Part shown: positions 22,620 to 63,754 of the stretch, piece by piece
How the letters are laid out: each line of letters opens with the position of its first letter
How positions within the stretch are numbered: the first letter of the stretch is position 1
Assembly (NCBI RefSeq): GCF_029227915.1
Contig: NC_079889.1
Span: forward strand, 11,284,001 to 11,348,000
Direction: 5' to 3'
Length of the DNA stretch: 64,000 nt
Source of the DNA: Hydractinia symbiolongicarpus
Taxonomy: Eukaryota > Cnidaria > Hydrozoa > Anthoathecata > Hydractiniidae
Program-made: the position numbers and the translations under genes
Notes under the pieces: generated by a model
The model's input: the letters and a program-made list of their open reading frames with translations, nothing else
Databases searched by the model: none
What the model was told of the DNA's origin: nothing

Positions 22620-23649
22620 AGTATGTTTATTATTTTTTATTGACAATATATTTCGGATAAAAATTATCCATCATCAGGTCTAAAAGCAAATAAATAATGT
22701 TAAAAACAGTTAAAAACAAGTATAAAATTATTCAACATATCATACATAAACTACACCTCACACTACAACAAATCAAATTTACAAGAAAATCTAAAAACAA
22801 AACGAGTTTAGAAGAGAGTAAGGTAAGTCGTTTGATTAAATGTCGGCTCGTCTGTCCGACATAGCACGAGTTGCATCGTGGACATTCTATTTTGTATACC
22901 AAACAACTTTTGAAACATTTTTCAATTACAGGTTTCAATGGAGGCAGAGAACTTTTCAACTTTTTCAATGTGAAAATAATTTTACACGGAATATTCAACT
23001 TTCTCATAGAAGTTTCAAATTTCTCCGAAACTCGCCCACGATATTGAATGAAAATCATCTTCTCTTCAGACTCTTCTTTCTCGTTTTCTTCATCAGGATT
23101 CTCGTTATCATTATTTTCCATAATCTTAGATATCGTACTTTTAATTATCGGGTCATAGAAAGCTTTCGGATATTGATTTTTCTCAAGAACAGTTTTACCT
23201 TTTTCTAGACTTTGGTGAAAATTCGACCATGTGCTACACGCTCGATGTATTCGATGAACTAGGCCGGATACGACTGACCGTTTATATTTCCGTGGTGCCA
23301 GTGAATGAAAGTTCATCGTCAGGCCTGTATCGGTAGCTTTCGTGTACCATGTCGATGATAAATTGTTATTTGAACGAATAATTAACATATCCAGAAAAGG
23401 TATAGACGTATTCTTCCCTTCTTTTTCAATGGTAAATTTGAGTGACGGATGCAGGTCGTTAATTTGTAGAAGTTTTCCGTCAATTCTATTACGTTCTATG
23501 TTTCTCAAAACATCATCCATATACCTTGAATACAGTACAGCATCGTCTTTGAGGATAGAGTCAAACTTGCTTAGCCAACCATTAGCGAGAAGTGGAGCTG
23601 GTGGGCTGCCCATAGCTAAGCCATCGATTTGCTTGGAATAGTTCATCAA
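22620..23649 (-). pseudogene. Penelope-like element fragment: RT motifs B-C, linker, broken GIY-YIG
   Basis: The minus frame 23649-22732 begins inside the reverse transcriptase at QIDGLAMGSP (motif B) and continues through YSRYMDDVL (motif C). It then has the basic linker typical of Penelope-like elements and the start of a GIY-YIG nuclease, CPRCNSCYVGQTSRHLIKR, where similarity ends. The stretch after that has a different composition and reaches a stop, so the nuclease is broken. The fingers and motif A are absent at the 5' side. Downstream, 22642-22677 carries a hammerhead-like core, as expected for Penelope terminal repeats. This is a dead copy. Confidence 0.85.
22642..22677 (-). ncRNA. 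Hammerhead-ribozyme-like core at the Penelope-element end
   Basis: Minus strand: CTGATGA, a perfect 6-bp stem GGATAA/TTATCC closing a TTT loop (after one T), GAAA, then TATATTGTC with GTC as potential cleavage site. This is the conserved order of a hammerhead: CUGAUGA, stem II, GAA, stem III, NUH. Stem III would be only 2-3 bp, as in the minimal hammerheads known in Penelope-like elements. Stem I does not pair well here, so this copy may be inactive. Confidence 0.5.
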
Positions 23650-24433
23650 TTTTTATTAAAGACTTGTTTTAACAGAATTAATGGAGACAACTTTGAAAAA
23701 TATGAAAATGCAAAAAAATGAAATTATAGATGGTCAAAATGTGTACGTGCGCACGTATGCTACCCTATCCCATGCACGCTGTTGATATTAGTCTGACCAC
23801 CCTTCCCATCAAGTGTGAAGGAATTGATACAATTAAATGGTATTTTCTCGAAAAGAACGAAGGGGGGGAAATGAAACTTTAGCGAAGCAGGTGTTCCAAA
23901 ACTGATTCAAAAGTGTGTTTTAAACACTTTGCCGTTGTCTCTTAGAATGCTAATACATTATTTTTTTTTTTGCTAATGGTCCTCAAATTTCTGATGCTAC
24001 TGTTGTACTTACTATATCTGTATTGTGAAAAAGAAAATTTTCATTAGAAAACCGATCAGGCAGTCTGCATTTAAACCTAGAACCCATTTTCCATTCCAGA
24101 GCGCTTTGAGATAAACTCGAGGATTTAATCTGAAAGAGTTCTGAGGACGAGAATGCTTATAACCTTATAAATCTGCAGTCAATTTGTCCTATTAACTTAT
24201 CGTGTATTTTTTAGCCTGTTCTTTAAAAGAGTAGTTATGGTCAAAATTTTATAAAAAAATATTAATTGATATAAACCCATGTACCTCTTCAACTGGTTGC
24301 ACTTCAATGCCAACCAGATGTTCAACGCGAGGTCAGACTGTTACTAGTGGCTTAACTCAGCGTTTCACCACCAGGTCCCCGGCTAGTCATATAAGAGCTT
24401 TTTATCCTAGCCAATAATATTGTTAATTTGTTC

Positions 24434-24481: not shown

Positions 24482-26896
24482 TTTAAAGTGGCTAGCCCAG
24501 AAAATCACAAAAACCTATAGTTAGTGGATTGTTTCCACTGGGGGCCACTAGAACAAAAAAGAAACAAAAAATGATAAACCTTAGACTGCCTCAGCTCAAT
24601 CAAACATAGTAACATTTATAATCTGTGAAAATTGAAAAGAAAAAGAATAAAAAACAAAAATTAAAAAGTTAAAAAGTGATCTCCATTAGAATTTGCCAAA
24701 TACATTCGAGATGGAAGTCTTAAACGAAAGCAGACTTCCATCACAGGTCACTTGGTCTGGAAGATTATTCCACACTTTTGCAGCTCTAAATGGGAAGGCT
24801 TTTTTGCCAAATTCCGTGTTGACCAAGGGAAGTGTGAACCTGTTTTTTGAAGCTCCTCTTGTTTGATGATTATGACAGTTTTTTGTCAAAAGGAATTTTG
24901 AGCGCATGTAATCAGGAGCAATGTGATTCATGGCTTTGAAAACTAATATGGCATCGTTTTTGATGAGTAAATTATTCATTGAATATTCCCTCTCTTTCCC
25001 AAGAAAGGTACTGACACATTTTAATCGTTTTTCTAGTTTTCCCAATCTACCTTGGGTGGCACAAGCCCATGCCGAGGAGCAGTAGTGGAAATATGGCATG
25101 ACAAGTGCATTAATTAAAAGGTTTTTTGTGTGAGGTGTTAAACAGGATGCAATGGTTCTAATTTTAGAATATTTAATTAGTATTTTTCTATTTATGTCAT
25201 TAATGTGCTTTTCCCATTGCATTTTTTGATCAAATGTTACCCCAAGATATTTAACTTTTTCGCTCCTCTTCAAAGGAATACCCATATAGTTGATAGTTTT
25301 GTTCTCAACTTTTTTTAACTGGCTGTGGTTGCCGAAAAAGATTGTTTCAGTTTTGTCCGTATTAATAGTCATTTTGTTACTATTCAGCCAGAGGTCGACT
25401 TGCGAAAGTTCTAACTCGACCTGGGAGACAAGGGTATCCAAGTTTTTATGAGACGAAATAATTATTGTATCATCTGCATATAGATGGTGGTAGTTTGAAT
25501 TGATGACAGATTTTAAGTCATCAATATACAAAAGAAAGAGCAGGGGCCCCAACACAGATCCCTGCGGCACCCCAAAAGCGTCTTCATGAAGCAGATCTGA
25601 TTCTGTGTCGTTTACAAGAGTCAGCTGCATTCGGCCCGTTAAGTAGGACTCGAACCAGTCAAAGGCAGCATCTCTGATGCCAAAACACCATAGTTTTTTT
25701 AACAAAATTTTATGATCAACAGTGTCAAAAGCTTTTTTAAGGTCAATGAGCACAGCACAAACAAAGTTATGTTGGTCGAGCTCAGTAAGAATAAAATCAG
25801 AGACATCGACTACTGCAGTTTCTGTGGAAAAGAGTTTTCGAAATCCGGACTGTCTGTCATTCAGGAAGTTGTGCTCAGAAATAAAATGAGACATTTGCTC
25901 ATGCACTAACTTTTCAAAAATTTTCATAGGAATTGGCAAAATGGAGATAGGCCGATAATTAGTAGGATCTGTTTTATTGCCACTTTTAAAAATAGGCGAG
26001 ACCCTTTTAGTCTTCCAACATTTAGGTACATAACCAGTAAATAAAGATTTGTTGTAAAGACTTAATAAATACATACTTAAAACTGACGAACCTGCTTTTA
26101 GCAGTCGTGAACCAATTCCGTCCAAGCCTGTAGCTTTATTAAGTTTTAGTGAACTAATTATTTTTTCGACACTTTTGGTCTCAATACGAGCCCACCGAAA
26201 ATCGTGTCCGCTAACAGGTGGATAAACATTAGTAGTGTCAGAAGAAAATTTAGAGGCTAGTTTGGCACCAACACTGACAAAAAATGAATTGAATGTGTTG
26301 GAAATTTCTTTTGGGTGAGAAGTTTCTGTACCATCGTTTTGGACTACTCGTTTTATCGAGGTAGTATTGCCTGACTTATCAGGAACCAGTTTTTTTAGGG
26401 TTTTCCAAAGTTGTTTTGGCCGTTTTTGAAAGTCCTGCAAAACGTCATTATAGTACTCGTTTTTGAGTCGATTTTTGAGACCTATTACCTGGTTCCTTTT
26501 TTGTTTGAAAGCTTCCCAGTCTATGATGGATTTTGTTTTTGATGCTTTCCGTTTCAAGAAGTCTCTTTCTTTGATGGCTATTATTAATTCATCAGTGACC
26601 CATGCCTCAACACGGCCAGAAAATCTATGTGTTTTGAAAGGGGCATGTTTGTCAGCCACTGTTTTAACATTTTTATTCAGTTTCTCACATGCTTCATCAA
26701 GGTCATCATAATTATTAAAATATGACCAGTCTAAATTCCTGAGGTCCTTCAGAAAAGCCTCTTTACTGAAGTTCTTGTAGCTACGAACCTTGCATGTTTT
26801 AGGTTCAAATTTTGGCCTTTTGAATTTTCTGATCACATAAACTAAATTGTGATCACTGATGTTCTTAACAACGTACATTTCACGTCTATTTTGGAT
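24436..26896 (-). mobile_element. CR1/L2-like LINE, 5'-truncated, with long intact frame
   Basis: The 3' end is marked by an (ATT)n tract on the minus strand (24436-24478), the kind of short-repeat tail typical of CR1/L2 elements, after about 200 bp of 3' UTR. The 5' side stops within the last part of the endonuclease domain: only NISDHNLVY remains and a stop codon lies 6 codons upstream of the first Met. It is therefore 5'-truncated although its reverse transcriptase frame is unbroken. Confidence 0.85.
24686..26878 (-). CDS. Non-LTR reverse transcriptase (C-terminal 730 residues of ORF2)
   Basis: RNA-directed DNA polymerase of a CR1/L2/Jockey-group LINE. From N to C: the tail of the endonuclease (SDHNLV), a basic linker, then reverse transcriptase motifs: NYRPISILPIPMKIFEKL, motif A VCAVLIDLKKAFDTVDH, motif B GVPQGSVLGPLLFLLYI, motif C LYADDTIII. 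After the thumb come the C-terminal TRGASKNRFTLPLVNTEFG and AAKVWNNLP blocks. All 730 codons are open, so the copy is recent, but most of the endonuclease is missing and it cannot be a complete element. The neighbouring plus-strand frames are shadows. Confidence 0.9.
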   Translation of the reverse strand: MYVVKNISDHNLVYVIRKFKRPKFEPKTCKVRSYKNFSKEAFLKDLRNLDWSYFNNYDDLDEACEKLNKNVKTVADKHAPFKTHRFSGRVEAWVTDELIIAIKERDFLKRKASKTKSIIDWEAFKQKRNQVIGLKNRLKNEYYNDVLQDFQKRPKQLWKTLKKLVPDKSGNTTSIKRVVQNDGTETSHPKEISNTFNSFFVSVGAKLASKFSSDTTNVYPPVSGHDFRWARIETKSVEKIISSLKLNKATGLDGIGSRLLKAGSSVLSMYLLSLYNKSLFTGYVPKCWKTKRVSPIFKSGNKTDPTNYRPISILPIPMKIFEKLVHEQMSHFISEHNFLNDRQSGFRKLFSTETAVVDVSDFILTELDQHNFVCAVLIDLKKAFDTVDHKILLKKLWCFGIRDAAFDWFESYLTGRMQLTLVNDTESDLLHEDAFGVPQGSVLGPLLFLLYIDDLKSVINSNYHHLYADDTIIISSHKNLDTLVSQVELELSQVDLWLNSNKMTINTDKTETIFFGNHSQLKKVENKTINYMGIPLKRSEKVKYLGVTFDQKMQWEKHINDINRKILIKYSKIRTIASCLTPHTKNLLINALVMPYFHYCSSAWACATQGRLGKLEKRLKCVSTFLGKEREYSMNNLLIKNDAILVFKAMNHIAPDYMRSKFLLTKNCHNHQTRGASKNRFTLPLVNTEFGKKAFPFRAAKVWNNLPDQVTCDGSLLSFKTSISNVFGKF

Positions 26897-33911: not shown

Positions 33912-36900
33912 ATGGTAAGTAAAAAATTGCACCTGAAAGACTGTTAAAATAATATTCCTCTAAAAAAAGGCCGTTAAATTTTCTTATGTAATCCTTTTTT
34001 AATTACTCTATTAAATCCTGACTGATTTAACAGGAGTATTTTGTTACTGGCTGAAAATGTGATAAGCGGTGTACAGGGGATAAGGAATTTTATACTTTTG
34101 CCTCTGGGAAGTTTAATTTTTTCAGATTGCACGTACGATTGCGTGTGCGATTCATTGCACGCCTACCTAAATTCTTATGAAATGGAGTGTGAACCATTAT
34201 AATCAACAGCTTAAAGCAGCTGTTAGACTGGTTCTAAACATTAATAACCATAGAATTATTAGTTAATTTAAAACATCCTAGAAAGTCCTTAAATTTCATT
34301 TTCAAAATTGGCTGGCCAGGCACATTAACAATCAACCGTATTTACCGATCTTTTTAACCACAATATTATATTTTTAATACTTTTCATTATTACTTATGTT
34401 TTGTTCCCAATATTTTTATTTTAGTCGAAGAAAGCTGCAGAATCTGTGAAAGTGGTAGTGCGATGTCGTCCAATGAATGAGAAAGAGGTTGCAGCTGGAT
34501 ATGAAAGGTGGGTCTTGAAATAATTCTGTCTTCCAACATAAGTAAATTCTTAAACTTACTGAATCAAAATTTTCAGATGCAAAGTGAGAAGATTTAATTT
34601 AGTTAGCGAATAAATCAACGGGTAGGATTTTATGTCTTATTATATTTTTAACACCAATTTGTTTAGAGTTGTAGATATGGATGTTAAGAGGGGAATTGTT
34701 GATCTGAAAAATCCCGCTAAAGCAAACGAAGTTCCAAAAGAGTTTACATTTGATGCTGTGTATGACTGGAAGTAAGTTTATTCCATCATGTTTGTTTATA
34801 TTTGAAAACGTTTATGCCCAGATTATTTATATAAGAACCTGGCAACTGCAATTGATCCGAAAAACAAAGTCAAACCAGAGCTGCAAAGTTGTAATATATT
34901 TTAACTAGTCACTAGCCTGTGGATGAATCGTAGGTAAATAATTCACAGAAAGCGCCTTAAATGATCTCATATCAATTTAATGCGGTTATTCTTAACATTT
35001 TTATGAAGGAAAAAAGCTAATAGTTAGTGCAAAAAAAACTTTGTGATATAAAAAACTTTTTTCAAATTTAATTGTTGGAGAATGTTATTTTAAGCTATCA
35101 CTGGCAGTATTCTTCCTGTTTTAAGCTATCACTGGCAGTATTCTTCCTGTTTTAAGCTATCACTGGCAGTATTCTTCTTGTTTTAAGCTATCACTGGCAG
35201 TATTCTTCCTGTTTTAAGCTATCACTGGCAGTATTCTTCTTGTTTTAAGCTATCACTGGCAGTATTCTTCCTGTTTTAAGCTATCACTGGCAGTATTCTT
35301 CTTGTTTTAAGCTATCACTGGCAGTATTCTTCCTGTTTTAAGCTATCACTGGCAGTATTCTTCTTGTTTTAAGCTATCACTGGCAGTATTCTTCTTGTTT
35401 TAAGCTATCACTGGCAGTATTCTTCTTGTTTTAGTTCAAAACAGCGTGATCTTTATGATGAAACTTTTGCAGATCTTGTTGAATCAGTGTTAAACGGCTA
35501 CAATGGTATTTTATTTATTTCGGCATACAATGCATGTTTCGTTACTCTAACTCTAATGCACTGTAAATGACTGTGGTACTTAAGCTTTTTCAAAAATACT
35601 TGAAAAAACTTATCCCAGAAAATGCTTAAACTCAATAAAATGAGATGTTTAGGGTCAACTGGTATATAAAATTTATCCTGAAATATGTCCTGAAAAAATC
35701 GGGAAATTCATATTTTGATTTTTGTTTTTTCGAGAATTAACTATATGGAAAAAAGTTTCACTTTAACATGAAGATGGAAAAACAAAAATACTTTTTTAAC
35801 ACCCAAATTTTTCACACTTTAAGGCAGGAGTTGAAAAAAACTATTTTTATTTCAATGTATATATTTGGAGCAGATTATATTGAGCACTCGGTTTATTGTC
35901 AATTGATGTAAAAACGTGCATTTCCCATTTTCTAAGAGGAAAATAATAGATTTTAATTTTTTGTTTATATTTGTTGCATGTTTTATAAATACATTTCTTG
36001 CTGTTGTTTAACATTTTCTTGCCCACTAGAATGCTGTTAAAGTTGGCCTCACAACTTCCTTTTCCACTCAATTTTTTTGATTGTCTTCTTCTTTTTCTAA
36101 TTTCTTGATTGTGCAACATTCACAGGTACAATCTTTGCATATGGGCAGACTGGTACTGGAAAAACATTTACTATGGAAGGTATGGATAGCTTCTACAGAG
36201 ATGAACATGAATGTATTCTTAAGAATTCATGTTTCAGTGTCAATGGGAAGTCGCACAACATTTTATTCAGTATTCGTTTTTGTTTTGAAGTTCCATTCAT
36301 GAATTTAAGTCCTTATTTTGAATCAGACAATAAGAGATATAGAAGAAGTACAAATTTTGACTTTACATTTCAAATTATTTTTTTTATAGGTGTTCGAAGT
36401 GATCCTGAGCTGCGTGGTATAATTCCAAATTCTTTTGATCACATGTTCACGCACATATCGAGAACACACGATCAACAATACCTTGTTAGAGCTTCATATT
36501 TAGAAATTTATCAGGTTTGTAACATTTTTTTTATGGTAAATATGATAAGAAATAAGGACTATAAGTGATTGATGTTAAACTTTACTCAGGGTAGCCTTCC
36601 TTTTAAAATCTTCTAAATAATAAGAAAATTCAGACTCAAAATATTTATTCCTCCTAGGATATTATATTTATTATGAGTGCCAACAGCGAAAAGATACATG
36701 TTATGTTATAAAGCCATGTAACCAAACTGAATGACACTTGAGAAATTCAAAGAAGATTAAGCCAAGTCAATTAACCAAAACATATATCTTTTTGTATGCT
36801 TGCTGCTAAATATTTGTTTTTAAATTTTGAAACAAGCTTGGGTTATTATCACAAAAAGACAAACAGATTAAGTGCGCTTTCCAGCTCACATTCAGAATAT

Positions 36901-48638: not shown

Positions 48639-48643
48639 TTATT
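48638..48643 (-). terminator. AATAAA overlapping the stop codon of the Death/NTPase gene
   Basis: On the minus strand the last codons read GAA TAA A, so the poly(A) hexamer AATAAA contains the stop codon. It could be used only with a very short 3' UTR. Confidence 0.35.
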
Positions 48644-51600
48644 CTCTCGATTCTTTTCTTGACCTAAAAAAAACAGAATTGAGTCAATATCTCTCTACTG
48701 CATTTCTTTGTTACAGTTTTCCAATCAATTGTTTTTAAAACCATTTTTCTCTAATTTATTTTAAACTGGACATTTACTTTTGCACTTGCAGTCACTCAAA
48801 CCTAACCTGGGTACGAGGTTAGCTAGAACTATCTAACACGATAGTCTGAGTACGAAGTTGCGAATGATTTTAATATTTAAATTTAATTATATCTTTATTT
48901 TATATTTTATAAATATGTTTCATATCTTTTCCATGTTTTCCCGTAAAGTAAAAATTTAACATCAAAAGAATAAAAAAAGAATTTTCAAAATACACGATCT
49001 GGGTACGAGGTTTATTATTCGAATAGCTTTATTACATTCAATCTTTGTGTTTATTAAATTAAAAATAACACACAAAATAATTTGTCTTTCCAACTTTTAA
49101 ACTTAGTAACTAAATTAATTTATTCATTTATAAATATTAAAAACTTACTTTTCGTAATCTTTAATCATCTTTCTTATTTCGTCACGATTTTGTTTATTCA
49201 TCAAACTTCCAGCCATATCATACGCAGTTAGTCCCCGTCTATCTTTAACCGCCACATCAATATTATTATGACGTAACAAAACATCAACACATGAGATGTT
49301 TCCACGATATGCAGCATGATGTAATGGTGTCAAGTTGTCACCAGCTCCACGGTTGATGTTTGTTACATCATGACGACATAACGTGTCTAATATTTTGTGA
49401 TGATTATACAATGCTGCGATATGATAAGCGTTGTAGTTGTATTTATTATTCATGGCCCAAACATCACATCCATATTCGATGAAAATGTTCACTATTGATG
49501 AATTGTCAGTGTATTCTGCTGTCATCATCAATAGTGTATCTGCAATTCCATCTCTCATATGGACGATGTTTGGGTGGATTGAGAGAAGTCTTTTTAACTC
49601 AATTGTATTTTCGTTTTGGATAACTTTCACCATATCTAAAAGTAAAAAAATAAATAAAAAGTATAATTATTAATTTAAAAATTTAAGAATAAAATATTAT
49701 AAAATTTGTGAACAAGAAATTAATAAAAGATAGGAATGGTAGAGATAAATGGTGTTAAGGATATATTTTTGTAAAATCATTTATGTATATTATAGTCAAA
49801 ATAATTTTTTTAAAGTACCTGCGTTGTCATATTGTTTTGATAATAAATATCAAAATAATTTTTTTAAAGTACCTGCGTTGTCATATTGTTTTGATAATAA
49901 ATATCAAAATGTTATCTGGTAGGAAAGAAATTCTAGCTGAATACGTTTACTCGGTCTTAACGTTCTTATAACCTCTTTTTATAAAAAAAGTTTAGCTATT
50001 AATGCCGTCATCGGAAATGCACATAACATACAAAATTGAGAAATTATGGAACTTTCTTGGTAGAACATGGAGGTAGAGGTAGAAATAGAAAGAACAAAGA
50101 ACGTTACATCAATAAATACAAAATTATGAACATTGAAACAAATAAAATTTTAACTGAAGGGAACGATCTTTAAGTGACATCTTCACTTTAAGAAAAAATT
50201 GGATTTGAAGACAATTTATAAAAGTAGACCGAATCAAGATGACATGAGCATTTTTGTACAAAAAATAAATTGTAAGTAAAAAAATATGTGCAGTAGATTG
50301 CTAAAAGTCATAAAAGTTAAAAATTATTTTACATCAATCAGATAAGCAGACAATTTTTTAGTTTATAAATTTTCTCACCGCGCACATCCAACTGTTCTGG
50401 ATACTTATTGTTGAATGAAATATTTCAATTTGCTTGAAGGAAATATACTTCCAAAAATAGATCATTGTATAAAAAATTTTCGATTTCAATTCGAACGCTT
50501 CTTAAACTATCTCAAAAAATATATTTTTTGACACGCGATGTAAAAATGAGAGCAGTTTTTGCGAATACAAATTAAAGTTTTCTGCAACTGGGTTTCCAAC
50601 TTTCTTTGTCAGATTTAGCGTATCAATCAAATGTATAACGGATTATATGATAAAGATTAAGGAAAAATCTTGGAGTAAGAAATTATGGTATATTGTTCAC
50701 GATTGGTGGCGGCGATAATTTTGAACTGTCCACCTTGTTCCCAGGATTCGTTTTTATATTGTAACGTCGCAATATAAAAAGGCAAGAGAGATTTTCATCC
50801 GTGGCATTAACATCCTGTACTGCTTACACCAGTCCGTATATATAGAATCGTGTCAAGGAGAAAATTAATGCATGAAACTGACAGTTTACTTTTACTAGGT
50901 GGATCCTCGCAGTCTGTGAAGGTATCGCAAATATGCGTATCAATTTGTTTTATGCGGCCACAAAATCCATTCCACGTAGCGAAATTTGCAGTGTTTCATT
51001 ACTGGAAGAAATAGGATATTAGGTGAAGTTCAAGGATGTTTTACTCTTCAAGCGGCAATTGTATAAGTTAAAAGGGTTAATTAAAACATTAAGTACTCCA
51101 ATTGAAATAATATTCCCAAGACCTCTTGCCTTTTTGTATTGGAACGGACACAAGAATTCCTGGGAACGAGGTTTGGTTGAAATGTGTGTATCTGGTTAAC
51201 TTGGGTGTTTTTTATTAAAAGTAAAATCTTGTATCTGGTGTAAAAATGTTTTACAGCCAGACAGAAAATTTATTGAATGAATAATCGAATCGCTGCATTT
51301 CCGAAACATTTTGTGCATTATTTTTATTACGGGTTATAATTAATCCTAAAAAAATACTAATAATATAAGTACTGAAGTAGTAGTATTTGAAAAATATATT
51401 TTTCATTGACTGGGGAAAATAATTTTTTTGATTTAATGACAAGTTATTGTTTTGTATCTTGCCCTTTTGACCAGAGAAGAGGAGCGTGTTTATTATGTAG
51501 AAATTTTACTTCAGCCTGAAGTGTTTTTAATATTAAATATTTTTAACCTTATTATTCTGGTTTTATTCCTATACTTGGAACATTTTTTTATTTACCGCAC

Positions 51601-54600
51601 AGTACATTACAAATATTTGCCGTTCAATTAATCTAGGAACAAATTTTACGGAATCTTAGCATTGATTTGTGCCTCGTAAAAAATGTAATATTTGCTAATC
51701 TTTTTTCATTATCTCTTTACATGAACAAAGAGGAAATCAGTAAACTTTCAGCCATTGTTATATTTTTTTATTTTTCACCCATTCACAGCCTCATTGTTCT
51801 TACACAATGTTCTAAGAAAATCATAGGTAACTCTAAGAACCTTCTTGATATTTTGGCGTTGAAATTTGTATTAATTGTGCGCAAGGTTAAAATAGAATAG
51901 AATTGAATGAGTACTGTGAATCCTAGTAAAATCAGATAAATTCATTAGCACTGCGTCCTTTTAAATTGCGTATGGTTTCAATTAAATTTTTTTGTGAAAT
52001 TTTAAATTTTTACATGGCGGCCGAAGGGCGATTTTTGAAGTAAGCGTAATTAGGCCCGGTAGTAAATTTGCAGTAAAATAGGCCGGCAGTAAAATACATC
52101 GAGAGAAAGAGATATGTTTTTTTTTATAAATAATACACTTTTACATATGACGATAACAAAATGACATAAAAAAATTTATTTTTAAAAAAATTTACGTGGC
52201 CAAATTGTCCCCCAAAAATCGATAATTACATTAGCGGTCGCCGCCATTATCGAACAAAAGTCAACTTGGTTTGTTTATATTTTGTTGATTTATGTCGTCA
52301 CACGGCGTGCAAAGCTCAAAGGGATTTGTAAGACGATGGACGAAGATTTAGTGACTGTTCGTCTCCTCAGAGTGTTTCAACTTTATCGCGAAGTTTTAAA
52401 GTTGTAACATCTTCTTTAATTAATTGTAAGAATTAGTTAGAAACAAGTTTCTTATTTCAAAAACAGACATAGAATGTAGTAGTAAAAGTTTCTTAATTTT
52501 TGAAGATTCTTAATGTAGGTTTCTTATAAACATGTTTCTTATAAAAAAGACGTGTAAAGCATTCGTGTCTCGTTTATCCGGAATTTTGTTCTTCCTATTA
52601 CTTAATAAGATCGAGTCTCAATCCACGCTATAAAAAATATGTTGAGTACGACAAGCAATATCAGAGATTATCCGCAAAAGAAGGCTCATATGGTTCGGTC
52701 ATGTCTGTAGACTGCTTTCTAACAGTATAGTGAAGAAAATTTTGAAGAGGATTTCATAGGTATGCGAAGGCGAGGAAGACCAGCGAAACGATGTATAGAC
52801 CTGATTAAGGAAGACACTCAACTTCGCCCTGGTACCGCAAAAAGTACGCAAAAGATCGCAAAAAGTGGCGAAAAATTGTCGACACAAATTGGGCGAAGCC
52901 ACTAATTGGGGTGTGCTACAAAGTAAAGCAAGTAAGTACAATAAGAACGAAGATTTTCGGAGGGAAAAACTTTCAGATTTTTGTTGTTCGAAAATTTTTC
53001 CGCTCGAAATTTGTGTCTGCCGAAAATTTTCCGTCCGAAAATTTTGGCTTTCCAATTTTTTTAAAAGCCGGGACCAGTGCATAGAAATTATATATAGGGT
53101 AATCAGAAAATTAATAAAAACTTCAGTTTTAGAATTTTTCCTATTTTCACATTTGGTTGAGGCTCTATTTATAATGTTGGATCCTGAAGTTCCTAATGTA
53201 AGTAAGTAAGAAAGTAAGTTGCTAAGAATAATCTGAGCATAAGTATATAAATGTATTCTCCAAACATTTTTCTCTGAAGCAAACCATGATTGTTTACAGT
53301 TAGTTTCAGCGCGATAATTTCACCGACCGAGTGACGTAATATTTTTTTTGCATAATGAGTGAAAAATCTCGACCAAACACGGCTCGGAATAAAACCAGCC
53401 TCCTCGACGACCTTTTTCATCAGATCTGTCAAAAAGCGCAGTGTCGATGAGAGACAAAAAGGCCTGGGAACGATGTTAAGCGTAGCTACATAGGCTAAGA
53501 TATGGCGGATATTTTGACTTGGCAATGTTGAGATTGACGTAGGGCTGTGTGTCAAACCTTAAATTTCATGTAAATATCTGGTTTGTCGCATAATTCTTAT
53601 CTATCAAATTATTTGGTCAAAATTGCATCAAAATTATAGCAATTGCAACCTCGTTTCCAGCACTTGTAGTCTCTCTTTTAATATCGAGATGGCGAAAGGA
53701 ATTGTATTGCCGTCCCTGTGGCACAAAAGATACAAGATAGCCTGGGTATGAAGTCGGGCATTAAGACATGTTGCAAGTGTATTGTTGTAGTTTCTGTGAA
53801 ACAGAAATGAAACCCTAATTTCCAAGCCCTACCCTCTTTATTTTGTTGTTTTCAGAATATTTATGCCATTTTACATTTTATTCAAATATTATACACACAA
53901 CGCCAGCACCTGTTTAACTGTGCAAAGTTGTAGAAGAAAATACTAACGTAACACCACAACTTTGCTTTTCGTTTTAGTAAAGAAACATAAAACTGTATTA
54001 AAAATCGCCATACGAGAAAAAGTGGAACCCGTGATCCATAAACCCTAGAGTGTTAGTCCTGGGACGTAGGGCAAACCTTGTGATTTTAAAGTAAATCGAA
54101 GAGCGGAATGCTGAAAATATATACATGTTAAAGAACGGGCAAGAGTAAGGGACTTTGACGCGATTTTGTTTTGTAGAATGTTTGGTTAATTCCTGAAGAT
54201 TGTTGTATAGATACTATAGTGTTTAAATGTAAAAAAGGTTAGTTTTTTAAATTTTCCATAGAACAACCCATGTAAATGGAATTTTTACTAGCTAGTTTTA
54301 TACGCTGTCCAAAATATAAAAATTGAGTGATCAATCTGGATTTATTGTTACAGTTTCTTGATACATGTCATATGTTACATTATTTTTTCTCTTTTAGTGC
54401 TGGTTAACTTAGCTTTCTCTGAATTTTACAACTTACTTCTCCGTTTTTTCGACGGTAAAAAATATCACGCTAGGTCTCGTAGCTATTTTGATGTTTGTCA
54501 AATACTGTTGCCTATATTTTAAATTTCGATTTGTTCTTCTGTCTAAACAACAAGTGCTGGCTTTCTGTTGCTTGTTTGGCATGATCTTGAGTGAAAATTT

Positions 54601-57600
54601 AAACAACTCGACCTTACTTAGCTAATTTTTCTTCAATTCAAAGTTGAGTATTCTCCGATTTCACGGCGTTAAGAAGATTCACGCTGACGTCTATCCTGGC
54701 GAAAAAAATCTCTGCTTTAGCCATTTTAGTTTTGGACCAAAGTCGTGACATAAATATTTTCCGTCTTTTTTCTGCATGATGGACGGAACACAAGTTTATT
54801 ATAATAATCTCAATAGTTAACTGTTGATATTGAGAGGGTATAATCCGAACTTACAAACATGTGAAAGTTAATGGATGTTTAAAAAAAGAGTAAACGTAAT
54901 TCATAGAAACATGTTAAATAAACAAAAAATATATTCAAAAATAAATCCGTAGAAGCAGTAACGACTAGACAACTAAAATAAAGGTAAATTTCGCTTCAAA
55001 TGACACAGCGTGATTCTTCTGCAATAGTCGAAAAGTTGCAGGAGACTCTATCCTTCGCTGATAAATCAATTAAAGGGAAAAATGTTTGCCTGTCAATAAC
55101 ACGCAAAAAATGTTTGTAGCACGCGAAAAATGTTTGTAGCACGCGAAAAATGTTTGTAGCACGCGAAAAATGTTTGTAGCACGCAAAGTCATGAAAGAAG
55201 AAATAAATTACTAACTTTATGATTTTTGTTTTAAAAAACATTTATAACTTCGCGTTTTGCTAATTTAAAATTTCATCAGTAAAGGTATGACTGAAAACGC
55301 GAAAGTTTTTCTCTCTTAAAGTAGTTGATATTTTAACTCTCGGAGTTAAAATCTTTTGTTACTTACAAGTTTCGGCAATATTCGTTCTAATAGCATAAAT
55401 TGTAGCAAAAAACAAAAACAAAAAACGTTTATTTCGAAGGAAGGGAATTTTAAAGAAAATAATGCAAAATTAATATAAATATTTGCTGTGTCTGCGGACT
55501 TAAATTTCGCAATCTTTAAACAATGCGATATATTGTTTCATCTTAAATTCCGCATGTTCTTAATTCTGTTTCTCTAAAAATTCTCATCTCTTCTTATTAC
55601 TATTCTGGTCAATGCATTCGTCAACTAAAACAGTTTGTCTCAAAATTCGTCTCGAGAACATTCAAGCGGATAAAGAACCGTCCGATAAGTATTATTATTT
55701 TTAGTGTATTTTTCGTTGTTCTTAAAAAAATATTTGATCTCAATTTGTCATTTTCATGCTGTTTACAAAGACATTCTCAAATTACGTAGTACAAGAAGTC
55801 ATTGACACAATACGGAAAACCCAATAAAGCCTTACCTTTAAAAGCACCCAATAAATTCTTTTTATGACTAAAAATATATAAAATAACTCAGTAAATGTTT
55901 TTTGTTCTGTTTAAATTATCGGGAATCTATTGTGTTTGTCGTTTTTTGTTAAAAAAATGGTTAAAAGTTATTACTTACTGAAAATATGGGGTTATTTTCG
56001 TATCTGATTCATCCAAATTACTAACAGCAGTCACGGAAAATTGATAGTTGCAGTAAAGTTTCAAGTTCGTTATTGTGCATGGTGATTGACGAGTTCGACA
56101 TACTTCATACCAGTCACTGTTACTGTTCGTTTCTTTTGCACGTACAATGTAAGTGAAACCTTCAGCTTTCCAAGCTAACGAACATGTCCTTTCATTCTTG
56201 TACAAACACTTCAAATTTTTAATGGAATCGGTAGTTTGAAGCCTAAAAATAGGTGAACACGTGAAAAAATCCAAAGGTTCGCCCATTCTTTATATATGCT
56301 ACAATAAAATATATCCCACAATGAAAAAATAAAAATTCAACATTCATTTCGTGCTATCTCAAGTCCTTTTTCTCATAAACATGAAATTTAAGACAGGGGA
56401 AAGTATTTGTTGAATTGTTCCCACACCAAAAACTATCTTAAACGAATTTTTGTCAATTAATTATGAACAGGGAATAACTAAATAACTCTTATTTAACTAA
56501 ATATTATTAAACATTATTACACTAAAATCTTTCCCCAACTATCTGAAGTACGTTCCCTCATAATGATGTCAGCGTGAATCACCTTACAGTTTGTGTTTGA
56601 TAAATGCTCCGACAAATAAAAAAATAAACTATTTGTCGGACATATTTTCTGTCTCAGTTGTTCCAGTGGCGGTTTAAGACATACATTAAAACACTGCATT
56701 CTGATAACTTTAAAACACAATTGCGCGCCTTCCTCAAAGAAGAAAGAAGTCTTACTACAAAAGTTTTTGCCGACATTTTCTGTTTCGATGTTAGGACTTT
56801 TCTCAATAAACAAACCAGAAGCGGGAATAATTTTCAGGGGGTAGCACAGCGCGCACCAACTTCCTTTGTGTATCAAAACAATGCAAAATTGAAAAGAAAT
56901 CTAAAAGCACGCTGCAAGTTGGGTTTTTTCTCTTTTTTATTTGTCCAGCTTCTTCAAAAACTCTTTCAAAAGCACAAAAATACGGAGATTGTCTGTAATT
57001 ACTACACCACTACCCACTATCAAAAAAATCGAGCCTCGTTTCAATTTTTTAGCAAGTTTTAAATATAAAAAAACAACGAAGAATCCTTTTCCGAAGAATT
57101 ACTGTGCAAACTTTGTTTTTTGCTAGAATTAAGTCTTGAGACATTTTTATAAATATAATATGTTAAAGCCAAACCATGGAAAACCAGCATGTACTACTAA
57201 AACATATGGCATTAACTATTCCGGCCAAAGTTTTTTTATAAAAAAACGGGTAAATTACTTACAGTTTTAATGTATTGCTTGGAACAGATGTTTATCTGGC
57301 AACTATCAGATATTATGGTAGCATCTTTATCCATGGAGACACTGCTCCATTGTTCACATTCAAGAAGTTTTTTATTCTTAATAACATCGAAGATCTGAGC
57401 AAAGCATTCTTCTCCCGACCACAATCTCTGAAGCCAATACGGTAACCATCTCTCACCAAATGTAGCGGCCTTACCAGCATCGATTCCAAGAATAATTAAC
57501 TCTGAGTGACTTCTCGTCATACACTCAAGCGCTAAATGCTTAAGTTTACGAGCAGCTGGATCAATACACATCACAACTTGATCAGCTTCTTTACCACGAC

Positions 57601-60600
57601 AACCAGCGTAGTTTGTCAACGTGCATTGACTCTGGAAAGGATAAGCCACATGCACTCCATTTTTATCTTTTGGTTGCCATTTAGAATATTCGATGAATTC
57701 GATGAAATCAACGTTAAGAAGTATAAGGACATTTTTCATCACAAAATAATGTAAGTATTCGTTGCACAGAACAAGCCGTCTTGTATTGACCGAAGCAAAT
57801 GAATTTTCAAGTATGGTGGCTAATTTTGAAATTAAGTCATGTTCTAGTTTTATGTGCGACTGATTTTGATTTAAAAATGTCACATATCTTGGAACACTGC
57901 CTGTTATGTTGTGACCAATACAGCTGGTTTCAGGATAATAAAACTGAGTTACTGTCTTCTTAGACTTGTCCAGTGGAAGTTGAGATAGGCTGGCCGCAAC
58001 AACATCTAAATCAATTGGTGTTTCAAACGATGATTTATGATCTCCATCAGTGCTAGGTCTTTTTGATGCCATTTCAGACTCTTTAACGCGAGTTTCAGTT
58101 CCACCAGATGAGCTTTTAGGTATTCTTAGTTCATTTGATTCTTGGGTCGTTGTTTTTTCATTTTTCCTTGGATTTATTTGAATTGAGTCAGTTTCTGGTG
58201 TGTTTGCTTTCATTAGGTTTGGTCGCTTTGGTTGATATATTTTTGTACGCTCTTTACATAATATATCTTCAATAGCATTGGTCAGTTTGAAAATATTTTC
58301 TGTCGTTCTCATGCATTTGGTTAGCCTAAAAATTTTTATATCTGTTTTGTTAAATTGATAGTTTTCGTGAGGCTCTTCTTTTCCGTTGTAGACAAAAGTT
58401 CGTTTTTTACTTAGAGAATGGGGCAATATGGTGATAAAAGAATCTGTCAATTCCTTTCTCGTCAGTGTTTTTCTCAAATCTTTCGCTGCAGTAAGGTTAA
58501 GCTGCTCACCATTAAATTCATCAACAATTAGATGAATCACTGTTTCTGCATACTTTCGAAGTAACTCAGTAATGAGAAGTGCTAACGAAGGTACACTTGT
58601 AAGATTTAAATGTTCACACATTTCACTAATGCTAAATACATGGATTTTTACTAAATCATTTGATGTAATGGTTTGAACAAATGTTTTTACGTCATTGACT
58701 AACATACTATTTATTTCCCAGCAAATATAAAATATTACAGTTGCTTTGTCAGCAAATTCAACAAGATCTTTAATCTGATAAAGTGCTATTAATGATTTAC
58801 CAGAACCAAAATTACCAAATATGATTTTCTTCTTTTCATTACTGTACAATATTTGCAGCTGCTCAGTATTCAACATCAGCGATTGAATTTTTTCCACTGG
58901 CTGAGCTTTTATTGCTGGTACGTGACTTCTAATCGTTTTTCTCGTCGCAAGAAAACCAAATATATTGCTTAATACTTTCATAAATGTTGAATTACTATCA
59001 TTACTATTTTTTAGGTCTTGACAAGGTTTTAGTAAAATTTTGTCGAACCAAACTTTCAAGTTTTCCACATCTTTCAAGTCATTCTTGTATATGATCAGAC
59101 ATTTTCCACAGATTAAAGAGTTTTCACCATGGACAAGATTCGGTGCTGCAATAATGTTAAAGAAAAGTTTTTGATGAAGTTTCAGTAGGGTTTTGTTCAG
59201 AATAAGCAAAGATTTGATATCATTTTCACCAGCCCCTATTTCGTCTTCCAAATCGTATAAGCTTTTAGACTCTGTATATCTGATGTTGAAGAAAATTACA
59301 GGGTTAGGATAAATAACTAGTATTCTTTTTTGATAATTTCCAAGTTTTGACATTCTATCTTTCTTTAAAAATTCTAGATGATCATCAGTATTATAATTTG
59401 TGATTACACCAACTTTTTCTTTCTCCATTAAAGCGTTTTTGAGTAGGTAAGCTAACTCAGATATCTTGTTTCCCTTTCTGTATGGTGGAAATTGTATAGC
59501 TTCTATTATGTGTTTTGCATCTTTTAAAGAAAAATAGGTACGAATATACTCCCAACATAACTTATACCATTCCTCGCGTGTAACAGTTGTTCTATGCTCT
59601 CCTCCATTTGATATAAATTCAACATCATCAGTTGGTTCCACGATATTTTGTATTTTTTTGATAAATTTTAAAATATCATCATACCCATGCGTCACAATTC
59701 GGATTTTTTCAGTTTCATTGGTGTGAAGATGAGGAGTATCTAAAAAAAAAATATACGATGTTAAATTCATTTTTTCTTTACATTTTTCTTTATAAAATTC
59801 GTCATTTGGAGTATCCGTATTTCACGAATAAGACAATGTAGGCAATCTGACAATTGAAATCTCTTCTCACTGAAAAAAGTTTAATTAACTTTATCTTGTG
59901 TATTAAGTATTGTTCGTTTTTAGCATTACAAAGACTTTTTTGAGAAGGTTTTTTTGGAAGTTGATATTAAAAACATTAGTAAATTAAAAAAAGAATTTTA
60001 TAGCGATGTGCAAAATTTTCACTATGCATGTATATTGTTAAAAACACTATATTTTGAGAATTTACCAGTGTAAATATGCCGAAAATTATGTGTGTTAGAT
60101 GTTGTTGCATGAATTACTTTCATTTCCATCCAACAGCGTTAATTAACGCTGTTGGAGAATGATGATGCAATGCTATGTTGAATAATAATATTCAACATAG
60201 CATTTTTCTGAAGCTGTCTGACTAAAAATATTGCATCTGTAGTGCCACGCCCTGGAACAAAACCAAATTGCATCTTATCTATATCAATTCTTTCTCTAAG
60301 TAACTTATCAATCACTCTTTCAATAACTTTCATTACTTGATCAACCAACTTCAAACCTCTATAGTTACCTCTTTCTAATGCATCACCCTTGCCCTTGAAA
60401 CAATTCACTATTACACTGGACTGCCACTCACTCAGAATAGCACAATCCTTTATAATCTGGTTAGCAAGACTTGTAATAAGCTCAACTCCAATATATCCAG
60501 ATGCTTTTACCATTTTTGCAACAATACCCGAAACTCCTACAGCCTTGTCAACCTTCAATTTCCTAATAACACTACCCATTCTGTCTTGATCTGCATAGCT

Positions 60601-63600
60601 GGTGCTTCAACAACATCATCATCAGACAAATTATCCTCATCCCATTTAAACTCAGTGTTAAGCAACCTCTGATAATAATTCTTTTAAGCTACCAATGACA
60701 AAAAAAGTAAAAGTGAGTACCTTCGATCAAAACATGTAATTTCGTATCATCCAGTGTTGATATTTTTAACTTGTCAATAGGAACGCCATTTGTTTTGAAA
60801 ACTTTTATCCTCATCCCTGTCTCAGACGATTCTTCTGTAATATAATCCAATCCTTCGTTTAGGTTTTTAATTTCTTCTTCTGAATGACTTTGAATTTTTA
60901 TGTTAGGTATGGACAAGGTTAACGTCAAGATGATATTTCCTTCAAAGTCTTTGTGTGTGCGAGTGCTGGAATAAATATGTAATGGGTTTTAAACATAATA
61001 AATAAACCAAGGCAAAAATATGATAACACACACAACAAGTAAGTTTCTCTTATCAAAATGTTGATTTCTCAGTACTTTTTTAAATTGAATTTTTTCCAAT
61101 AATATCTCATTAGGTTCTTTATTTTGGAAATGGTGTCACTAAGAAGCTTAAACGCAACACACATGCTGGATCTCCTCACCCAAAAGTGTAGTATGTATTT
61201 TTCAAAAGATATGAAGGCTCTGCAATGCAAATAGTGATGACACAATGTTAAAACACTTAATAATATAATAATATTGGACCAATAAAAAACTAGAATTTTG
61301 TTCGAAGTCTGTCTGCAACACGTGCAAATATGTTATATCCAATCGGAAATTGTTTTCTTGCATAAGTATCTTAAGCGAAAATAATTGACATAAGTACTCC
61401 TTTCCAAATCAAATACAAACCTTGGTATGTTGACAGAAGAAGAGCCTAAAAAGTAATTACAAAACATACAAACATAATACCTTTTAAGAAAAATAACTTC
61501 TCATATTATAACTTATTTATTAATGTTGACAAAAACATAAACATAAAAATAAACAAGAAGGCATATTGTAGTTGTGTTATACCTGTAATAAAGGATGGAT
61601 TCAATCACTGGATAAGAAAAATATTAGGGACAAAAATTTCAGCATTTTAAAAATTGTTTTCCTTTTCGTTAAATATTACATTTAAAACCCAACAGCAGTG
61701 TTCTTTTTCCTCGAAAATGTTATATTTCCTTCCTTGTTAAACAAACGTTGTTTTCTATTGTCCTTGTAAATATTCAAAATGTACTAATTTCTTGTGGAAT
61801 AATTTAAGTAACAAATTTTAAATGAGAATACTGCTCAAAATCGAAAATCTATCTAAAAAATCAAAGCTTTATCTAGAAATTAAGGGAGTAGCAGAACTTA
61901 CCAGTACAGCCCCTCAGTATTTTATCTACATAAAAAAAGTACATATGAGTAAATGTTATATCAATTTTTTAATTGCAATATCATCTGATGGAAACCAGAC
62001 ATGATTTTAGTAACTGGAATTTAAAATTGATGCTTTAAGAAACAAAAAATGAGCTACTTATACCTTCAATTTCATGTATTAATTTTTCCAGAGAAAATAG
62101 TTCCAAAACAGATTTCAGATGACTCCAGCTTGGAGTTGCGGTTGAGACATCCCATGTTTTTAACACAGTCAGTAAAACACGTTGAATGTCATTGGGATAA
62201 TTTTCATAAATTGTACTTATTTGATTGTACGGGAGTAGAAAATGTGCTATTTCTCTCGCATGTGTGATTGCATTTGCTGATATCTTTTCATACATTTCTT
62301 TTCGAATTATTTTCTCCAAGTGAACTGAATCAGCTAAAAAGGAATCCAAATAATAAATTACATCATGGAGTCCTAAGCTCATTCAAGTTGTAAGGTTGGG
62401 ATGGCGTGGCGAAAAATTTCCCCTGCCTAAAAATTTATTGCTGTTTAATTTCTAATTGGATTACAGGATTTACAAAAGATTTGTTTTGAACTAAAATTTT
62501 ATATGAAAATGAGGGCAATATTTCCTATCATATTTTTCCTCGGTTGGCATGTGCATTATTTACAGTATTTTTATTTTAGTTCTTCATATTTTGCGAATGT
62601 TGCTTAAAAAAATAACATTGACATTTACATTCAATTTAATAATTTTCAATATTTTTAAGAGCAATTTATTCTTGGACACTAGGTTTCGAAATACATGTCA
62701 ATACCACTTACGAAACAGTATGGGTAGATAAAACGCTTGTTTTTTGAGGGTGCCAGTATTAATTCGTTTTATAATAGACATGATTAACTAAAACATTTCA
62801 CATTTGTCTGTCAACTAAATTATTAAAAGCTTGTCGTAGCCATTCAAAAACTACTGATGGTGGTTATAGACAGGTTCTAACACAGCCAATATTTATGGTT
62901 CCCTTTAGTAGCCATTATATAAAAGGTTTGAATGTAAAAAATTCCATGGTGATGTAAGCTGTTATAACGCTGTGATTAAGCTACTGCAATGAGTAAAAAC
63001 AATAACATGTTGATAAAAAATTAGACTTTTATATCTCGAATATTTTGTTATTATTCAAAAGTTAATAGAAGGTTCAAAAGTTTCCAGGGTTAAGTGTTTT
63101 TGTCTGCTCTCTCAACTCCAAAGCTGCGTTGATTACACTCAAACATTAAAGATTTAATAGCGTAAAATAATTTGTTACCTTTGATATGATGAAAAGGATG
63201 CTTTTGCAAATCACTCATGTCCATCAAAAGATTTAGTGTTCCATTTCTCTCTAAACTTTCATTGACCTTTTGGAGTGCTGTTTCTGTTTTATCACTGTAA
63301 TTGGTGTGAAGCAGCCATTCAGAAATACAGTCTAAAACCGCATCTTCTCGTCTAAACTCTCTATCAAATATTTTTGCTACTCTATCAAAGTTTTCTTCCA
63401 ATAGATATTGGCAAAAATATTCTCCTTCCCGTTTGTGTTGTTGAAAACGAACTGAAATTTGGTAGGCCATCCATAGTTGTTCTAAAAGGTAGAAAAGACA
63501 GTTTAATAAATTATTTATCATTGTCAGTTTTTGCCGTTTTTGTAAAACCAAAAGTTTCAGCAACATTCGGTCAGTGTTTTTTTTGAGCTCATATCTAACA

Positions 63601-63754
63601 GCTATCGTTGTCAGTTTTTGCTGTGTTGATAAAAATGAAGCAACATTTAGGCAGTTTTTTTTAGCTAATATCTAATACACGTTTTGCAATGTAAGTATGC
63701 GAAAAAATATACCGATATATACTTCTTACCATAATTCATCTTGCTACTACTCAT
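48639..63754 (-). CDS. Death-like domain / SF1-type P-loop NTPase / FN3 / ankyrin protein
   Basis: Not a family I can name. Exons in transcript order: 63754-63730, 63481-63179, 62372-62064, 61925-61902, 61445-61421, 60965-60721, 59739-57263, [57122-57103 candidate], 56242-55979, 55867-55836, 49635-49149, 48663-48639. All joins are in phase, giving 1411 residues. About 9-109: helical, unknown. About 128-212: Death-like domain (IYENYPNDIQRVLLTVLKTW, then HLKSVLELFSLEKLIHEIE). 311-1136: helicase-like NTPase. It has a Q-motif-like LNTEQLQIL, Walker A GNFGSGKS (619-626), Walker B LIVDEFNGE (717-718), FRLTKCMRTTENI, YAGCRGKEADQVV and ECMTRSHSELIILG, as in UvrD/Schlafen C-terminal domains. 1143-1231: FN3. 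About 1245-1400: about four ankyrin repeats (NLTPLHHAAYRGNISCVDVL). No signal peptide or membrane helix, so probably cytosolic. A signalling or immune-sensor role is inference. The 20-nt exon and the 6.2-kb intron before the ankyrin exon are the weakest joins; two genes remain possible. Confidence 0.75.
48806..49013. repeat. Solo CCTGGGTACGAGGTT repeat ends
   Basis: CCTGGGTACGAGGTT at 48806-48820, a diverged copy near 48846-48860 and CTGGGTACGAGGTTT at 48999-49013, all in the same orientation and without visible partners. They lie in the last intron of the Death/NTPase gene. Confidence 0.55.
49797..49904. repeat. Perfect 54-bp tandem duplication
   Basis: Two head-to-tail copies (49797-49850, 49851-49904). 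On the minus strand each contains ACGCAG|GTACTT, a donor-like site, and the copy nearer the 5' end is preceded by TTTCTTTCCTACCAG. It lies just upstream of the ankyrin exon. Confidence 0.9.
49905..50730. other. Intron before the ankyrin exon, left part
   Basis: No exon or element recognised; AT-rich. Confidence 0.4.
50731..51174. mobile_element. ~445-bp MITE of the CCTGGGNACGAGGTT family
   Basis: CACCTTGTTCCCAGGATTC at the left and GAATTCCTGGGAACGAGG at the right form terminal inverted repeats. It is longer than the ~105-bp members and has no coding capacity. Confidence 0.6.
51175..52599. other. Intronic sequence, nothing recognised
   Basis: AT-rich; short frames are unmotivated. No exon with matching phase was found. 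Confidence 0.4.
52600..52940 (+). mobile_element. RTE-like LINE 3' relic
   Basis: Plus-strand pieces IRKRRLIWFGHV and, in another frame, YAKDRKKWRKIVD are the classic C-terminal LINE signature (RRLxWxGHV ... DRxxWRxxV). Several frame changes and stops lie between them. The relic ends in an AAGTAAGT-type tail. It is antisense to the host gene's intron. Confidence 0.6.
53263..53477. repeat. Repeat fragment ending CCTGGGAACGATGTT
   Basis: Contains CACGGCTCGGAATAAAACCA, also found at 11081-11100 next to the Tigger insertion, and ends at 53463-53477 with the family terminus. It is a relative of the element that the Tigger copy interrupted. Confidence 0.5.
53647..53755. mobile_element. ~109-bp MITE of the CCTGGGNACGAGGTT family
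   Basis: AACCTCGTTTCCAG at the left and CCTGGGTATGAAGTC at the right, inverted, enclose about 80 bp. Same size class as 7799-7899 and 13230-13335. Confidence 0.55.
53756..55110. other. Intronic sequence, nothing recognised
   Basis: No exon, element terminus or regulatory feature supported. Confidence 0.4.
55111..55190. repeat. 20-bp tandem repeat, four units
   Basis: Four units of TGTTTGTAGCACGCGAAAAA with one diverged unit to the left. An 81-codon minus frame over this array is a product of the repeat, not a gene. Confidence 0.9.
56300..57100. other. Intron between NTPase and FN3 exons
   Basis: Contains a hairpin TCCGACAAATA/TATTTGTCGGA near 56608-56641. Overlapping frames of about 120-134 codons on both strands have no recognised motif. 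No better bridging exon than the 20-nt candidate at 57122-57103 was found. Confidence 0.4.
60130..60204. repeat. Two adjacent strong palindromes
   Basis: 60130-60155 is a perfect 26-bp palindrome (half-site CCAACAGCGTTAA). 60169-60204 is a hairpin with 16-bp arms (AATGCTATGTTGAATA) around a 4-base loop. They sit at the 3' end of the LINE relic. Confidence 0.9.
60206..60690 (-). mobile_element. RTE-like LINE reverse-transcriptase fragment in intron 6
   Basis: Minus-strand pieces YYQRLLNTEFKWDEDN, then (after a frameshift near 60580) RKLKVDKAVGVSGIVAKM, GNYRGLKLVDQVMKVIERV and MQFGFVPGRGTTDAIFLVRQ are typical of non-LTR reverse transcriptases before motif A. The fragment starts about 30 bp from the donor of the exon ending at 60721 and has no 3' half. 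Confidence 0.75.

Follow-up and report, generated by a model that had tools for sequence, protein, structure and literature searches.

A Hydractinia gene family combining Death, SF1 helicase-type NTPase, FN3 and hypervariable ankyrin modules: a candidate family of intracellular immune receptors

Results

Gene structure in the window

We analyzed a 64,000-nucleotide stretch of the Hydractinia symbiolongicarpus genome (C15 positions 11284001-11348000; hereafter, the window) together with paralogs found by searching the genome (76 contigs, 480,894,487 bases). A series of open exons with good splice sites occupies the minus strand of the window between positions 63754 and 48639 and encodes Death-like helical, P-loop NTPase, FN3 and ankyrin modules. 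An earlier note on this DNA had proposed that these exons form one gene, a sensor built like an NLR with a superfamily 1 (SF1) motor in place of NACHT.

The scheme comprises 11 exons, all on the minus strand. A putative ATG start codon opens e1 (63730..63754, eight codons plus one nucleotide), whose GT donor is in phase with e2 (63179..63481). The latter encodes an N-terminal domain, probably helical, that is kept 5' of the Death exon in paralogous loci L010, L012, L016 and L018; Pfam and PDB searches with e2 gave weak, unrelated matches only, and its ratio of nonsynonymous to synonymous divergence (dN/dS) between the window and L010, the closest paralog (NTPase 80% identical), is 0.42. The Death exon e3 (62064..62372) is followed by two short linkers, e4 (61902..61925, 24 nt) and e5 (61421..61445, 25 nt), both present with splice sites in L010. 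The module encoded by e6 (60721..60965) has no fold assignment. Its profile matches 11 of the loci fetched, three of which were used to build it and two of which (L014 and L015) are one gene; the window copy has no Pfam match, and otherwise Pfam and PDB returned only weak, unrelated rows. A TRADD-N identity for e6 is unsupported, there being no such Pfam or PDB sequence match, and hhalign detected no kinship between e2 and e3 or between e6 and the start of e7.

The large exon e7 (57263..59739, 825 aa) encodes an N-terminal module of about 284 residues with an invariant CxxC, followed by the SF1 helicase-type NTPase. Downstream lie the FN3 exon (55979..56242; Pfam fn3 E 6.1e-6, 26.8 bits at a cut-off of 25), a 32-nt linker exon (55836..55867) placed by splice sites and phase only, a 6.2-kb intron, the ankyrin exon (49149..49635; Pfam Ank_2 E 2.1e-15, 57.5 bits at a cut-off of 27.3), which is a hypervariable cassette in much of the family, and a putative last exon with a TAA stop (48639..48663), placed by acceptor and phase only. 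Junction phases match throughout the scheme except between e7 and the FN3 exon. The intron before e7 contains a reverse-transcriptase fragment (60139-60606, minus; Pfam RVT_1 E 3e-4, below cut-off).

Recurrence of the module order in the genome

The NTPase exon gave 59 matches that merge into at least 55 loci, 32 of them on C2; since 55 of 117 candidates were scored, this family size is a lower bound. Most of the listed NTPase matches are free of internal stops, and some carry them. The order e2-Death-e6-NTPase-FN3-ankyrin is found again in L009-L011, L012 and L016, and partly in L014/L015 and L018. The tested splice phases of e2, e3, e6, e7, FN3 and ankyrin exons in L012 are those of the window scheme with a phase-2 end of e7. 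Most tested phases also agree in L016, where the e6 donor was not found and the e7 donor is GTTAGT. Because the same exons occur at many loci in the same order, on the same strand and mostly in the same phase, we consider the exons of the window more than a chance arrangement.

The ankyrin exon lies 3' of the NTPase exon, in the same orientation and no more than 15 kb away, in at least 51 of the 55 loci, as near as 1.1-1.5 kb at four of them, and begins with an acceptor of identical phase in all eight loci viewed. The ankyrin search scored 150 of 326 candidates, and the linkage count used 70 of those 150 rows; the 80 omitted were mostly C1 rows and partial copies, so the count can only be too low. 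An FN3 exon follows e7 within 5 kb at 45/55 loci under a lenient threshold (E up to 1; 22 of 62 FN3 rows have E > 0.001), and of the ten loci left without FN3 in this count, C11:27708138 has it by profile. Ten of the 28 Death-exon matches, the window included, lie no more than 15 kb 5' of an NTPase locus and in the same orientation, compared with about 0.02 expected from random placement. The recurrence of order, strand and linkage at many loci upholds the earlier proposal that Death, SF1, FN3 and ankyrin modules belong to one gene family.

Several FN3 and ankyrin pairs have no scored NTPase exon (C2:12906459/12910584, C2:13741506/13745667, C2:13263697/13267415 and similar ones). These are probably further family members whose NTPase exon falls outside the 55 scored candidates. 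C1 holds 64 of the 150 scored ankyrin rows. Two loci there, L085 (C1:31001600-31008000) and L086 (C1:26065000-26070500), have a B-box zinc finger exon (zf-B_box in Pfam, E 4e-6 and 2e-6) and, 3' of it, a related ankyrin exon that is 43-44% identical to that of the window. By eye, the two ankyrin exons diverge at the same turn positions. The arrangement suggests a TRIM-like family whose ankyrin array is of the same kind.

The reading frame between the NTPase and FN3 exons

The window copy of e7 stops at 57263 in phase 0; for the FN3 exon, which starts at 56242, two carried bases are required. The 11 exons total 4216 nt, which is not divisible by 3. The 1411 codons without a stop described earlier (1412 including the stop, 4236 nt) result when a 20-nt microexon (57122-57103, minus strand) is inserted; this microexon is probably not real. 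With loose donor patterns, the 1-kb intron between e7 and FN3 offers 12 open candidates of fitting length and phase, so finding one is no evidence. We rejected the microexon as unsupported, given the many candidates, the lack of a counterpart in the alignment to L009 and the direct fit of e7 to FN3 in most of the paralogs inspected. The e7 frame ends at a phase-2 donor in eight of nine other loci inspected; in the seven loci viewed, the acceptor of FN3 takes up a single base and so fits a phase-2 donor directly. In the ninth locus, L016, a GTTAGT donor, seen by eye, would be needed at the end of e7.

After the last shared codon of e7 the window copy has 9 nt, compared with 89 in L009 and L012. 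This 80-nt shortfall indicates that the window copy is probably frame-broken before FN3 by an apparent deletion. The claim that the exons join in phase therefore stands for all other junctions, and the chain holds for the family, but the e7-FN3 junction of the window copy is not confirmed and an unbroken 1411-codon frame is not shown there. The FN3 and ankyrin exons of the window copy remain open, which suggests a recent event or an alternative splice form. The copy may yield only a Death-NTPase protein, or nothing. In the available text on assembly HSymV2.0, scaffold 15 is a single contig built from HiFi reads (PMC10411563); if this scaffold corresponds to C15, misassembly of the window would be less likely.

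Predicted folds of the Death and NTPase exons

The predicted model of e3 is a six-helix bundle with the fold of the Death superfamily (Foldseek E 0.027), and that of e7 has two RecA-like lobes with SF1 topology. Structure prediction, proposed earlier as a check, thus agrees with both folds. In all 16 aligned members the motifs that we take to be Q, Walker A, Walker B (DE), the motif IV arginine, motif V and the motif VI arginine are intact, in keeping with a Schlafen/UvrD-like SF1 NTPase. The best Foldseek matches of e7 are human SLFN11 (765 alignment columns, E 1.4e-13) and SLFN14. A sequence-profile search of PDB placed SLFN5 first (E 0.15) and SLFN11 third (E 1.2), all matches being weak; the PDB sequence search with e7 alone gave no match, and the N-terminal module of e7 alone returned only two weak arginine decarboxylase rows (E 0.37 and 0.57).

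The window e7 matched three Pfam families at E up to 1, none of them NACHT or NB-ARC, and neither is among the 25 Pfam families listed for the 16 members. That list includes generic P-loop models, NPHP3_N (8/16 members, best E 3.6e-4) and nSTAND_NTPase5 (2/16, best 0.067). As far as the listed matches go, they favor the idea of an NLR-like sensor in which an SF1 motor replaces NACHT. The Schlafen helicase model PF09848 matched 1/16 members (E 0.05), and the SWADL motif, searched with a pattern taken from the available text of PMC8875196, occurred in none of the 16. The AlbA-type core of Schlafens is not among the Pfam families listed; full-length SLFN alignments reach its region and superpose loosely. 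PADLOC model C3a187, a bacterial NERD+UvrD protein, matches e7 (E 0.0014), the likeness being confined to the P-loop region around Walker A (residues 268-377). A search of viral contigs for a relative of the NTPase gave 88 pattern matches, none confirmed. Among C15 and C14 genes the NTPase exon is under purifying selection (dN/dS 0.15-0.30).

Hypervariability of the ankyrin exon

The comparison of ankyrin and NTPase exons covered 18 of the 55 loci, selected for sharing one ankyrin type; 15 loci, outside the window's own group, gave 105 pairs and 14 the group means. Nonsynonymous divergence exceeded synonymous divergence in 90/105 pairs for the ankyrin exon (45 with Fisher p<0.05) versus 0/105 for the NTPase exon. 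Mean ankyrin proportions of nonsynonymous (pN) and synonymous (pS) differences were 0.110 and 0.053, and pN-pS was zero or less in one of 2000 codon bootstraps. C2:6441291 and C2:11859535, with an NTPase dN of 0.001 and dS of 0.007, differ in the ankyrin exon by 40 nonsynonymous and 2 synonymous changes.

In designed ankyrin repeat proteins (DARPins), repeat positions 2, 3, 5, 13, 14, 26 and 33 are randomised. With the repeat register fixed by the TPLH motif, the 26 hypervariable ankyrin columns (four or more residues among the 14 loci) occupy 18 of 27 DARPin positions versus 8 of the 103 others (p 7e-10). For the hypervariable columns pN is about three times pS (0.454 and 0.142), and elsewhere the two are alike (0.039 and 0.041). 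Tyrosine makes up 14.7% of residues at hypervariable columns versus 3.3% elsewhere, and tryptophan 7.2% versus 1.5%. In the trio of loci to which the window belongs, which was not used to define the columns, 22/26 hypervariable columns differ versus 48/132 others (p 5e-6). By these sequence patterns it is the ankyrin exon, not the motor, that carries the ligand-recognition signature, which would point to a protein-type ligand rather than nucleic acid. One-base-biased mutagenesis of the kind seen in diversity-generating retroelements is unsupported, the substitution spectrum at variable codons being mixed.

Copying of the ankyrin exon between loci

In 55/105 pairs the ankyrin exons have dS<0.1 yet the NTPase exons have dS>0.5. 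The window gene shows a contrast in the same direction, weaker than in the 105-pair set: dS is 1.15 (NTPase) and 0.35 (ankyrin) against C15:10557279, and 4.3 and 0.53 against C2:6441291. Among three C2 loci (three pairs), a continuous match of 85-90% identity stops about 50-260 nt beyond the ankyrin exon, and past these flanks most of what is left of the intron is no more alike than unrelated sequence. A match ending just outside the exon fits copying of the exon with short flanks, by gene conversion or transfer. Trees were tested with 20 loci, the groups being picked after identities and trees had been viewed; the NTPase data reject these post hoc ankyrin groupings (p 8e-77 and 7e-11).

Discussion

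We propose that the gene belongs to an expanded family of intracellular immune receptors with a Death signaling end, an SF1 motor, an FN3 spacer and an ankyrin recognition surface. Given the calculated module order, predicted Death and SF1 folds, NTPase motifs, purifying selection, and ankyrin hypervariability and copying, each for the loci examined, we put the probability of this reading at roughly 0.6. The N-terminal Death domain would be the signaling end, the Schlafen/UvrD-type NTPase an ATP switch or oligomerising motor, FN3 a spacer between motor and repeats, and the C-terminal ankyrin array a recognition face for varied, probably proteinaceous ligands. A ligand bound to the ankyrin face could change the nucleotide state of the SF1 core; this would expose or cluster the Death domain and seed a Death-fold assembly, leading to defence or cell death. 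A further-reaching version has about an even chance in our judgement. Here a single ankyrin exon, about 26 positions of which are hypervariable and rich in Tyr and Trp, would form a DARPin-like inherited repertoire by exon-limited copying among some 50 Death-SF1-FN3 genes, with a related exon in the B-box family. The outcome would be an NLR analogue that has a motor of Schlafen/UvrD type and whose specificity can be swapped and is antibody-like.

Several observations weigh against the receptor reading. The gene models of the window and its paralogs were built from genomic sequence alone, the window copy appears to be frame-broken, and the L010 copy of e2 (L010:2406-2705, minus) has an in-frame stop. 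The Foldseek E value for the Death fold is modest, and the Pfam Death model matched none of five members at E up to 5. The 105 pairs are not independent. Hypervariability is not universal: in the group to which the window belongs, ankyrin dN/dS stays below 1 (0.54-0.85), and the near-identical loci C2:32438855 and C2:35873498 differ in the ankyrin exon by only one nonsynonymous and one synonymous change. As to copying, at 1.0-1.6 kb upstream of the exon one of the three C2 pairs shares an extra patch of 433 nt at 95% identity and the other two share a patch of about 130 nt at 85%; shorter patches are also shared. In approximately unbiased (AU) tests the ankyrin trees are not in significant conflict with the NTPase tree (p 0.148, 0.117 and 0.114), so the claim of exchange rests on the dS contrast and flank identity.

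The proteins might instead be Schlafen-like nucleic-acid effectors, in which the SF1 core and N-terminal module sense or process tRNA, DNA or RNA and the ankyrin and Death modules scaffold or regulate. The structural match to SLFN11 and SLFN14 and the weak PDB profile rows for SLFN5 and SLFN11 speak for this; we consider it unlikely. Hydractinia is colonial, and the ankyrin repertoire could serve to detect conspecific non-self after colony fusion. Such allorecognition or fusion-incompatibility receptors would recall the incompatibility NLRs of fungi, which in the available text of PMC4986451 also combine a hypervariable repeat surface with exchange between loci, but a germline array of at least 50 loci suits pathogen recognition equally, and we hold this alternative to be rather doubtful.

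Two further explanations question the gene or its function. The 6.2-kb intron before the ankyrin exon, and the many ankyrin exons without a scored NTPase exon (in two cases viewed, 3' of a B-box exon), could mean that two neighboring genes travel together, one of Death-NTPase(-FN3) type and, downstream of it, one that encodes the ankyrins. This is very improbable in the face of an order and strand constant at at least 51/55 loci, spacing down to 1.1-1.5 kb at four, and the same-phase acceptor in 8/8 loci viewed. To relaxed constraint, with neutral ankyrin variation in a dying family amplified like a transposable element, we give the slimmest chance of all. The broken window copy, the stops in some NTPase matches and the ankyrin dN/dS of 0.54-0.85 in the window's group are what it would predict, but most listed NTPase matches lack stops, the NTPase exon is under purifying selection, and variation among the 14 loci sits on contact positions, where pN is about three times pS, with both near 0.04 in the rest.

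The combination of Death, SF1, FN3 and ankyrin modules was not found described in the titles and abstract openings of the open-licence literature searched. TRANK1 has ankyrins and a UvrD-like helicase, and this is its likeness to the family; according to the earlier note it lacks Death and FN3. Group III Schlafens (SLFN5/11/13/14) share the SF1 helicase domain and give the best Foldseek match; the Hydractinia family differs in lacking SWADL, in having no AlbA core among the Pfam families listed, and in the added Death, FN3 and ankyrin modules. Animal NLRs, which join Death or CARD, NACHT and repeats and whose cnidarian expansions figure in a survey of cnidarian pattern recognition receptors (available text of PMC8260672), have in common with the family a Death-fold N terminus, a central P-loop NTPase, C-terminal repeats and expansion. 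Unlike them, the family has a two-lobe SF1 helicase-type motor rather than a NACHT/NB-ARC STAND motor, FN3 between motor and repeats, and ankyrins instead of leucine-rich repeats.

In Podospora NLRs with ANK, TPR or WD repeats, the repeat surface is positively selected, for ANK mostly at concave contact sites, and repeats are exchanged within and between loci, according to the available text of PMC4986451. The Hydractinia family resembles these in repeat-surface diversification and exchange between loci. It differs in being animal, in its SF1 motor and in the seat of its diversity, which is found among entire germline copies of a single short ankyrin exon rather than in many near-identical tandem repeats. 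Cnidarians and further marine animals have expansions of Death-superfamily and TRADD-N proteins, of which some carry ankyrins and others helicases (Mov10, DDX60, RLR-like); like the Hydractinia family, these are expanded and in part ankyrin-bearing. Exon e6 has no TRADD-N match by Pfam or PDB sequence, and the available text on these expansions mentions no SF1 family with FN3 (PMC8195603). The available text of PMC3710099 notes cnidarian fusions of HEPN domains to NACHT and DEATH domains.

How diverse non-self is recognised from the germline in animals that lack antibodies has long been an open question. In Hydractinia, a laboratory model animal, the sequence of the loci examined outlines a candidate recognition surface, with the motor conserved, a putative Death adaptor present and the ankyrin face variable at DARPin positions. 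If our reading is correct, this would be an animal parallel to fungal NLR diversification, and ligand discovery, the rate of exon exchange and the SF1 motor as an immune switch become testable.

Other features of the window

Elsewhere in the window, a long open reading frame at 24686-26896 (minus) encodes a reverse transcriptase (RVT_1 E 2e-37) and by eye belongs to a non-LTR element; an RVT-like frame at 22732-23652 (minus; E 0.007, below cut-off), with a GIY-YIG-like motif at its end by eye, is possibly Penelope-like. A DDE_1 transposase frame (8341-9567, minus; E 7e-39) with a CENP-B-like frame, recognized by eye, just upstream (10261-10845, minus) forms a pogo/Tigger-like element. The plus strand has a HIRAN-like frame at 9755-10216 (Pfam E 2e-4, below cut-off) and a kinesin motor domain exon at 36101-36568 (Pfam E 1e-16).

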